Of a stretch of 64,000 nucleotides of DNA, positions 12,808 to 19,746 are shown piece by piece. The notes below the pieces were generated by a model. It did not search any database. It saw only the letters and a program-made list of their open reading frames with translations, and was not told the origin of the DNA. Source of the stretch: an uncultured Carboxylicivirga sp. (lineage in GTDB: Bacteria; Bacteroidota; Bacteroidia; Bacteroidales; Marinilabiliaceae); contig CANNEA010000009.1 of assembly GCA_947503525.1 (NCBI GenBank), positions 124,001 to 188,000 on the forward strand. Direction: 5' to 3'. Within the stretch, counting starts at the first letter, position 1; each line of letters opens with the position of its first letter. The position numbers and the translations under genes are program-made.

Positions 12808-12837
12808 AAGCTCACCCTTAAGGTGGGCTTTTTTTAT
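12808..12837 (+). terminator. Rho-independent terminator of mdh
   Basis: Nine-bp stem AAGCTCACC/GGTGGGCTT (one G-U pair) with a short loop, followed by a run of T. Confidence 0.9.
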
Positions 12838-12978
12838 GTCCGAAATTGAACAGCGAATTGTGTAATATCGTTCAGTTCTTAATGTCCTACTTTACACTCA
12901 TCACACTCTATACTCTTGAATTAATGTCACTTACAGATTGTGGCATAAAGTCTGATATACAACAGACAACAAATCAAT

Positions 12979-12994
12979 GGAGGAAATAGTCATG
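12979..12994 (+). promoter_or_regulatory. Strong Shine-Dalgarno before the ESWM-repeat gene
   Basis: GGAGGAAA begins 13 bases before the ATG at 12992, with eight bases between GGAGG and the ATG. It overlaps an upstream in-frame ATG at 12977, so it favours the 12992 start. Such complete Shine-Dalgarno sequences are uncommon in Bacteroidota. Confidence 0.65.
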
Positions 12995-13732
12995 AAAACA
13001 GAACTTAGCCATACGCAAAAAAACTCAACCGCAAACTACATCTTTTTTGGCATTACACTTAGTGTATTCTTATTGAGTTTATTCTTCTCAATTGTTCAAA
13101 ATAAAACTGATCTTTATAGCAATGCAAGTGTTTCAGCATTACTATCGCATAAAATGGTTCAGCCAGTCGTTTCACCTTTAACAGAAGTTCAACCAATAGA
13201 CTTGAAAAAACTATTAGTAGAAGTTACTGAAGAACCAATAGTAATTCAAAACTGGATGACCCAAAGCGAATGGACATCAGTTGGAAATATAAACCTAAGT
13301 AGTTTTATCAATACAGAAGTAGTTGAAGAAGCAATTCCTTTGGAAAGCTGGATGATGTCAACATCATCATGGTCTTTAATTAATAGTAGCGATATTGTTG
13401 AAGAAAGTATCCCTTTAGAAAGTTGGATGTTAAGCACTGATAACTGGGAAGTACTTCAAGCTAATTACTTCAGCGAGGCTTCAGTTCAGGAAGAAGCCAT
13501 TCCCTTAGAATCATGGATGTTAAACATTAGTTCATGGAACCTTGCAACAAGCGAAGATTATACGGAAGCTAATATCCCAATTGAAAGCTGGATGTTATCC
13601 TCAGAATCATGGATCTCAACGGAAGCTCTGAATTCAATTGCTGTTGAAGAAGAAGATATCCCTTTAGAAAGCTGGATGCTTAGTGTCGCAACCTGGGAAG
13701 TTATTAAGACTACAGACTTAGCAAGTAAATAA
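12992..13732 (+). CDS. Membrane-anchored protein with six ESWM repeats, function unknown
   Basis: 246 residues from the ATG with the good ribosome site (an in-frame ATG at 12977 would add five). One hydrophobic segment near the N-terminus ('YIFFGITLSVFLLSLFFSIV') is followed by an acidic, soluble region probably outside the cytoplasm. That region has six copies of a motif with consensus EE-x-IPLESWMLS-xxx-W, spaced 25-32 residues apart: the first is divergent ('IVIQNWMTQSEW'), the next five nearly invariant ('IPLESWM' or 'IPIESWM'). The DNA of the copies differs at many synonymous sites (Ser as AGC, AGT or TCA), so the peptide pattern is under selection. No enzyme or known domain is recognised. 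It is a single-gene unit between two terminators. Confidence 0.85.
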   Translation: MKTELSHTQKNSTANYIFFGITLSVFLLSLFFSIVQNKTDLYSNASVSALLSHKMVQPVVSPLTEVQPIDLKKLLVEVTEEPIVIQNWMTQSEWTSVGNINLSSFINTEVVEEAIPLESWMMSTSSWSLINSSDIVEESIPLESWMLSTDNWEVLQANYFSEASVQEEAIPLESWMLNISSWNLATSEDYTEANIPIESWMLSSESWISTEALNSIAVEEEDIPLESWMLSVATWEVIKTTDLASK

Positions 13733-13756: not shown

Positions 13757-13790
13757 AAAAAAAAACGAAGCCATAGGCTTCGTTTTTTTT
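13757..13790. terminator. Bidirectional terminator between convergent genes
   Basis: Perfect 8-bp stem ACGAAGCC/GGCTTCGT with loop ATA, flanked by a run of A on the left and of T on the right, so it can stop transcription from both the ESWM-repeat gene and the permease gene, whose stop codon it touches. Confidence 0.92.
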
Positions 13791-19622: not shown

Positions 19623-19746
19623 AATGATGACAAAATTACAACTTTTTGTGGCATTTTGGCGTTTATTTAATGATTGATGGTTTGGCACAATACTTGATAT
19701 CTACATATCAACATTTTTAGATATTTTAATTTATAATTTAAAGGCT

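Follow-up and report, generated by a model that had tools for sequence, protein, structure and literature searches.

The gene at positions 12992..13732 (+) of the window, the whole analysed stretch of 64,000 nt from an uncultured Carboxylicivirga sp., encodes a protein with six short motifs built around a Trp-Met pair (the WM-repeat protein), which by sequence comparison is a member of an undescribed family. A predicted sigma-54-dependent promoter with an upstream activator site precedes the gene and is well supported at the sequence level. This shared promoter with its tandem upstream sites is the strongest clue obtained and was absent from the initial annotation; because it gives much of the WM family a common switch, the candidate is a better one than that annotation had described. 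What is meant as categorically new is the protein family together with its WM motif, the sigma-54 control being of a known kind. The sequence data support predicted export or membrane anchoring, conserved motif cores, an acidic composition and the composite promoter; a partner and a protective role are what we infer beyond these. It is about an even call whether the protein serves as an anchored periplasmic effector in a sigma-54 envelope-stress regulon, with an acidic, probably disordered tether carrying docking or sticker motifs.

The protein has 246 aa, with the stop codon within the coordinates, and re-reading of the sequence agreed with the initial annotation on the ORF, the six motifs and their spacing of 25-32 residues. 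The likely start codon is 12992 (ATG AAA ACA), favoured because an in-frame ATG at 12977 overlaps the GGAGGA at 12979..12984 (+), a putative ribosome-binding site kept among A-type orthologues and absent from B-type ones. The position after mdh is occupied by the A-type gene in several genera, that beside ppiB and an ssb-like gene by the B-type gene (gene names by sequence reading); both look like vertical inheritance and not like a functional operon. From its N-terminus, the product comprises a short conserved tail, a single membrane helix (approximately residues 15-33; 13034..13090, +), a spacer of about 45 residues and the six motifs. The helix was read from sequence and alignment and appears as a low-confidence helix in the AlphaFold model. 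The motifs, likewise read from sequence and alignment, lie on the + strand at 13229..13276 (motif 1, EEPIVIQNWMTQSEW), 13325..13372 (motif 2), 13400..13447 (motif 3), 13490..13537 (motif 4), 13565..13612 (motif 5) and 13649..13696 (motif 6), the tryptophans of the WM pairs falling at residues 88, 120, 145, 175, 200 and 228 with spacings of 32, 25, 30, 25 and 28 residues. Copies 2-6 are near the consensus given by the initial annotation and copy 1 is divergent, and all six copies of [LI]-x-[ILV]-E-x-W-M-x-[SDN]-x3-[WF] sit in a strongly acidic region. The core common to WM copies is E-x2-[LI]-x-[ILV]-E-x-W-M-x-[SDN]-x3-[WF], within which codons vary and residues do so in part.

A survey of 152 copies in 27 proteins, members picked for at least three WM pairs, found Glu at -2 in 130, Glu at -8 in 126 and Trp or Phe at +7 in 117, with 124/125 inter-copy spacings between 19 and 39 residues and the remaining one being 7. 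The presence of WM in 353/354 repeats carries no weight, since WM guided the choice of proteins and WM copies went into building the profile. Substitution rates indicate that selection does act on the WM peptide, on the cores more than on the linkers, which bears out the proposal of the initial annotation that the peptide is selected as codons vary. Between G011 and G009, near species and the closest pair compared, dN and dS were 0.015 and 0.61 for the motif cores, 0.061 and 0.45 for the linkers, and 0 and 0.16 for the N-terminal part. Core dN was lower than linker dN in 10/10 pairs examined and the dN of the N-terminal anchor lower than that of the cores in 8/10, dS often being saturated across these ten pairs; low dN in cores and anchor and higher dN in linkers thus mark the former as conserved and the latter as less so.

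Conservation of the motif alongside linkers that vary in sequence and in length (19-39 residues), together with the number of copies per member (2 to 10 across 68 genes), favours a multivalent docking scaffold, a special form of the envelope-stress model. Each WM motif would bind the same folded domain of one envelope or periplasmic protein, so that several copies of it gather at the inner membrane, whether or not stress is involved; this is a serious possibility that we place somewhat short of even. A multivalent binding partner, as the initial annotation suggested, can reasonably be inferred. However, no candidate receptor was found, and a motif-profile search of the window's own genome returned no proteins beyond the WM proteins, hence no receptor-motif fusion that might serve as a clue. 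Single-motif proteins were discarded as clues as well, a pattern search of the genome giving the two WM proteins and ORFs that were otherwise unrelated by reading.

From 12 residues ahead of the first WM to the C-terminus (SWMLSVATWEVIKTTDLASK), the 171 residues of the window protein have a net charge of -29; Lys makes up 1.2% of them, and Arg, His and Cys are absent. Across 68 family proteins the mean net charge is -0.21 per residue. Regular short motifs on an acidic tether, as first annotated, are an apt description, and the repeat region is acidic yet Trp-rich. The AlphaFold model, computed from a 3-sequence alignment, has a mean pLDDT of 33.6 with scattered short low-confidence elements and reaches 50-70 only at about residues 12-32; this low confidence may reflect the shallow alignment rather than disorder, and a disordered tether is only suggested. 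On sequence reading, family members have either a membrane anchor or a signal peptide, G019 having the lipobox LLMGCS instead, and the WM motifs would accordingly lie outside the cytoplasm, in or at the periplasm.

Two further readings turn on composition and location. The regular short repeats with variable spacers, and upstream sites shared with M16 peptidases, would suit a precursor from which repeated signal or bioactive peptides are freed by proteolysis; nonetheless, the copies differ inside one protein, the repeat region has almost no Lys or Arg, and no repeated spacer site resembling a cleavage signal was seen. A precursor is accordingly a very improbable reading, and the processing signal entertained by the initial annotation becomes less likely on the same grounds of composition and mutual difference among copies. 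That an exported repeat protein has a sigma-54 promoter would also be in keeping with a surface-layer or biofilm-matrix protein, structural or adhesive in role, of a PEP-CTERM-like kind. We consider this improbable: no sorting domain was matched in NCBIfam, a PEP-CTERM tail is absent and the N-terminal membrane anchor is kept. The extracellular self-assembling matrix of the initial annotation loses ground with it, because the anchors, signal peptides and lipobox of relatives place them in or at the periplasm.

Within the genus, the window protein had a match in 13/13 further genomes searched, and two named relatives are Carboxylicivirga linearis and a Marinilabiliaceae bacterium. The window's genome encodes a second member (G000:C6) of 189 aa, which has five motifs behind what looks like a cleavable signal peptide, and tandem WM genes occur at G022:C87, G004:C50, G725:C1, G049:C263 and G013:C717. 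The repeat-profile search proposed in the initial annotation was carried out with a 21-residue motif profile (A2), which at E 0.001 matched 34/71 genomes of the taxonomic family and 21/295 of the order, own genome included in both. Among 395 genomes across the phylum the profile matched the own genome only, and among 395 across the class at E 0.3 it matched 33, with more than one match per protein in the own genome only; as the profile was built within the order, distant WM forms may escape at such sensitivity. The best match outside the order (G898, E 0.002) was rejected, being a single motif in a 111-aa ORF without repeats. The presence of similar stretches in other Bacteroidota, raised in the initial annotation, is borne out, within the genomes sampled only for the protein's own order. 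No established domain was matched: the best Pfam score of the window protein was 15.8 bits against a cut-off of 27, eight diverse WM relatives gave nothing above cut-off, NCBIfam gave zero matches for the window protein, the one sequence searched there, and PDB sequences gave zero matches to the WM protein. Plasmids and phages likewise gave zero matches at E 0.01, and a literature search, confined to titles and abstract openings and with subscription journals mostly and bioRxiv preprints outside its coverage, found no description of the WM repeat.

Reading of the upstream regions revealed TGGCAC-N5-(T/C)TG ahead of most WM members, corresponding to a sigma-54 -24/-12 element; in the window it is TGGCAT-AAAGT-CTGAT at 12941..12956 (+), scoring 7.5/9 in our own scheme. 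An element of at least 7/9 precedes 55/67 WM genes (54/67 in an earlier count with slightly different limits) versus 18/331 other genes of the same loci with at least 100 nt of upstream space, and shuffles average 1.68; L154, which has no upstream sequence, was excluded from the 68 WM genes. The A-type and B-type promoter alignments share a second conserved block, consisting of TGTTCG-N4-CGAACA, 5 nt, and TTGT with a second imperfect copy. In the window, putative upstream activating site 1 (TGTCCGAAATTGAACA, 12837..12852, +) fits the palindrome at 10/12, and putative site 2 (TTGTGTAATATCGTTCA, 12858..12874, +), kept in both alignments, begins 5 nt past it. The first palindrome alone is found at 10/12 before 51/67 WM genes versus 11/331 others, and the composite of palindrome and sigma-54 element in the right order and distance before 51/67 versus 0/331, with none in 50 rounds of shuffling. 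Start-to-start spacing from palindrome to element is 101-106 nt in 51/51 and 104 nt in 37, where a wide distance range was allowed and, if several pairs fitted, that nearest 104 was taken; among the same 51 promoters, distances to the ATG range between 37 and 67. Since the scoring scheme was set after the first sequences had been seen, the 67-gene count is partly descriptive; stronger tests are the 331 control genes without a composite, the constancy of the spacing and the genus scan described below.

The composite promoter is unevenly distributed. It precedes 43/45 genes in the window's family and 8/8 in five other families (f11, f86, f98, f111 and f116), these 51 genes spanning six families of the order, and 0/14 WM genes of six further families (f15, f23, f93, f110, f126 and f151). 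The composite switch is thus not universal in the WM family, having been lost or never gained in half of the sampled families. A sigma-54 element is still present in 4/16 non-composite genes (L111, L116, L145 and L157). WM genes at L143, L144, L149, L150 (G534, G725), L155, L158 and L159 (G592, G049, G687) have no composite although RpoN is present, and regulation at these seven loci seems, on their upstream sequence, to be different. RpoN itself was useless as a co-occurrence test, being present in 278/295 genomes of the order.

In the genus scan, the tandem pattern TGTNCRNNNNYGNACA-N5-TTGT gave 36 matches in 14 genomes versus 0 for the reversed control. Assignment by position (by reading for G013:C717) linked 26 of them to WM genes, and in the window's genome the pattern marks the two WM genes only. 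Another six fall in a divergent promoter flanked by an M16-peptidase pair on one side and a DUF6452/DUF6048 pair on the other (Pfam on one example), one, in G012, stands in the gap separating a MacB-type operon from a sigma-54 response regulator, and three lie elsewhere, namely inside an opposite-strand ORF (G010:C10) and at one place on both strands (G005:C125). The M16 side of the divergent promoter has, besides the tandem sites, a GG-N10-TTG element with a weak -24 box; divergent promoters of this kind with tandem sites were observed at L332, L333, L263, L278, L275, L270 and L290, making DUF6452 and DUF6048 possible members of this stress regulon.

The single palindrome is less discriminating: 17 matches at 10 places in the window's genome versus 11 for the control, little above background, so that not every such site is real. 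Two of these sites are flanked by a MacB operon and by a response regulator with Sigma54_activat and HTH_8 domains, similar to that of G012 and with a kinase gene after it; this operon carries TGGCACAAGAAGTG as well, at 81 nt from a perfect copy of the palindrome. One site stands ahead of an ABC-MacB-MacB-HlyD-OEP operon that has its own full sigma-54 element (TGGCACAAGGATTGAT), and others are before an ABC-2-type gene, within the M16/DUF6452 promoter, near an FtsX-like gene and in an apparent repeat sequence at C5 (names by reading). The stretch L297:7470-13687 (G000:C1 region) combines a MacB-type ABC operon with a sigma-54 response regulator (L297:10960-12336) and a kinase in divergent orientation, a layout repeated in L300; the kinase at L297 has, by reading, two close membrane helices, and the set-up resembles transporter-coupled sensing. 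Broad sigma-54 scans of the genome were set aside as noisy (20 matches versus 9 for the control; 87 versus 27). Separately, a strong sigma-54-like element (TTGGCACAATACTTGATAT) lies at 19682-19700 (+) of the window, 51 nt upstream of a thioredoxin-like gene, and L111 and L118 have elements like it ahead of their thioredoxin-like gene; no palindrome of at least 9/12 was found upstream of the window copy, which is perhaps under another activator. At L202 (G000:C5, site 203343, -), an exported-looking His-rich protein of 214 aa, possibly a metal-binding stress protein, is encoded 64 nt past a sigma-54-like site.

The WM gene itself looks monocistronic, because terminator-like hairpins with T runs follow both mdh, ahead of it, and the gene (13764..13790, +; read by eye). 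Neighbours, identified by Pfam on one example per kind and by BLAST clusters for the remainder, include an HlyD-OEP-MacB-HlyD cluster ahead of mdh in six loci of other genera, in five of which a DUF2807 gene comes after the WM gene, as it does in L117. At L147 and L156 the WM gene is the last of an operon-like series that begins with a gene for 95-99 aa and continues with those for an ABC ATPase and a MacB permease. The 95-99 aa protein (L147:10380-10680 and L156:3089-3377) has its own sigma-54 element and palindromes, and Pfam gave no match for the L147 copy. Over 63 loci, MacB lies within 5 kb of the WM gene in 2 and at 5-10 kb in 7, and is thus not concentrated near WM genes; the cluster before mdh is one syntenic arrangement and the ABC-MacB pair at L147 and L156 a second. 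No partner gene has a constant place beside WM genes, and neighbourhood is a weak functional clue.

An envelope-stress role is proposed because the upstream sites are shared with M16 peptidases and MacB exporters and because of the sigma-54 regulon of Flavobacterium psychrophilum. Conserved promoter sequence suggests that transcription would start from the sigma-54 promoter, with an enhancer-binding activator on the pair of neighbouring palindromes some 100 nt further upstream; that a regulator binds this tandem pair is likewise a prediction from sequence. The activator would be a response regulator like the one whose gene adjoins a MacB-type ABC operon of the window's genome and has the same palindromes just upstream. 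The product would be a largely disordered, strongly acidic tether anchored in the inner membrane, its paralogues being secreted or lipid-anchored, and the 2 to 10 WM motifs would act as repeated periplasmic docking or sticker sites with an alternating-hydrophobic stretch, a Trp-Met end and an aromatic anchor. Such motifs might bring together multiple copies of a single envelope partner, or else retain hydrophobic or cationic material that is exposed; misfolded proteins or peptides retained in this way could be passed to the co-regulated M16 peptidases and MacB exporters.

A second special form of the envelope-stress model is an acidic sponge, in which a membrane-tethered polyanion with Trp stickers captures cationic amphipathic antimicrobial peptides alongside co-regulated MacB exporters. 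MacB clusters are common in the phylum, which counts against it, and charge alone needs no conserved Trp-Met with Glu two residues earlier; the reading is rather unlikely, even with the strong net negative charge of window protein and family, the near lack of Lys and Arg, the same upstream site at MacB-type operons and the sigma-54 control of antimicrobial-peptide permeases predicted for Bacteroidia (PMC12316311). In its widest form, the preferred envelope-stress reading would have one enhancer-binding activator direct sigma-54, through tandem TGTTCG palindromes, to WM polyanions, periplasmic M16 peptidases and MacB-type exporters as an undescribed envelope-defence system of Bacteroidales. As a new short linear motif, WM would then serve to capture exposed hydrophobic or cationic material or to recruit many copies of one envelope receptor. 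We regard this wider proposal as tentative, with odds clearly below even.

For exported WM proteins that have no annotation, the simple motif and the sharp regulatory signature, present in half of the sampled families, make function testable, and the proposed regulon would show a role for sigma-54 in an order where RpoN is near-universal. Among known systems, ZraP, CpxP and Spy are small periplasmic proteins induced by envelope stress that contain a repeated short motif, ZraP being sigma-54-dependent, and they fold as helical dimers with LTxxQ motifs. Their Pfam families were unmatched by the window protein and eight relatives, and LTxxQ was absent from the window protein on reading. PEP-CTERM proteins of other phyla, under PrsR/sigma-54 control, resemble the WM family in that a short motif and a sigma-54 promoter define a set of exported proteins; the window protein, however, is without the C-terminal PEP-transmembrane-basic tail, and its motif is internal and repeated. 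A T9SS C-terminal sorting domain was matched in neither NCBIfam nor, above cut-off, Pfam for the window protein.

Sigma-54 control of chaperones, proteases and antimicrobial-peptide permeases has been predicted in Bacteroidota (PMC12316311), and for this order such predictions were all that was found, the mapped regulon found being that of another order (PMC9723704). According to PMC9723704, the F. psychrophilum regulon covers protein quality control, gliding, the response to envelope stress and exported proteins whose function is unknown. Although this regulon belongs to a different order and the accessible portion of PMC9723704 mentions neither the WM repeat nor the tandem TGTTCG palindrome, its genes (motif SM4) are like the WM genes in having -24/-12 promoters before exported proteins of unknown function, in the company of chaperone, protease and envelope genes.
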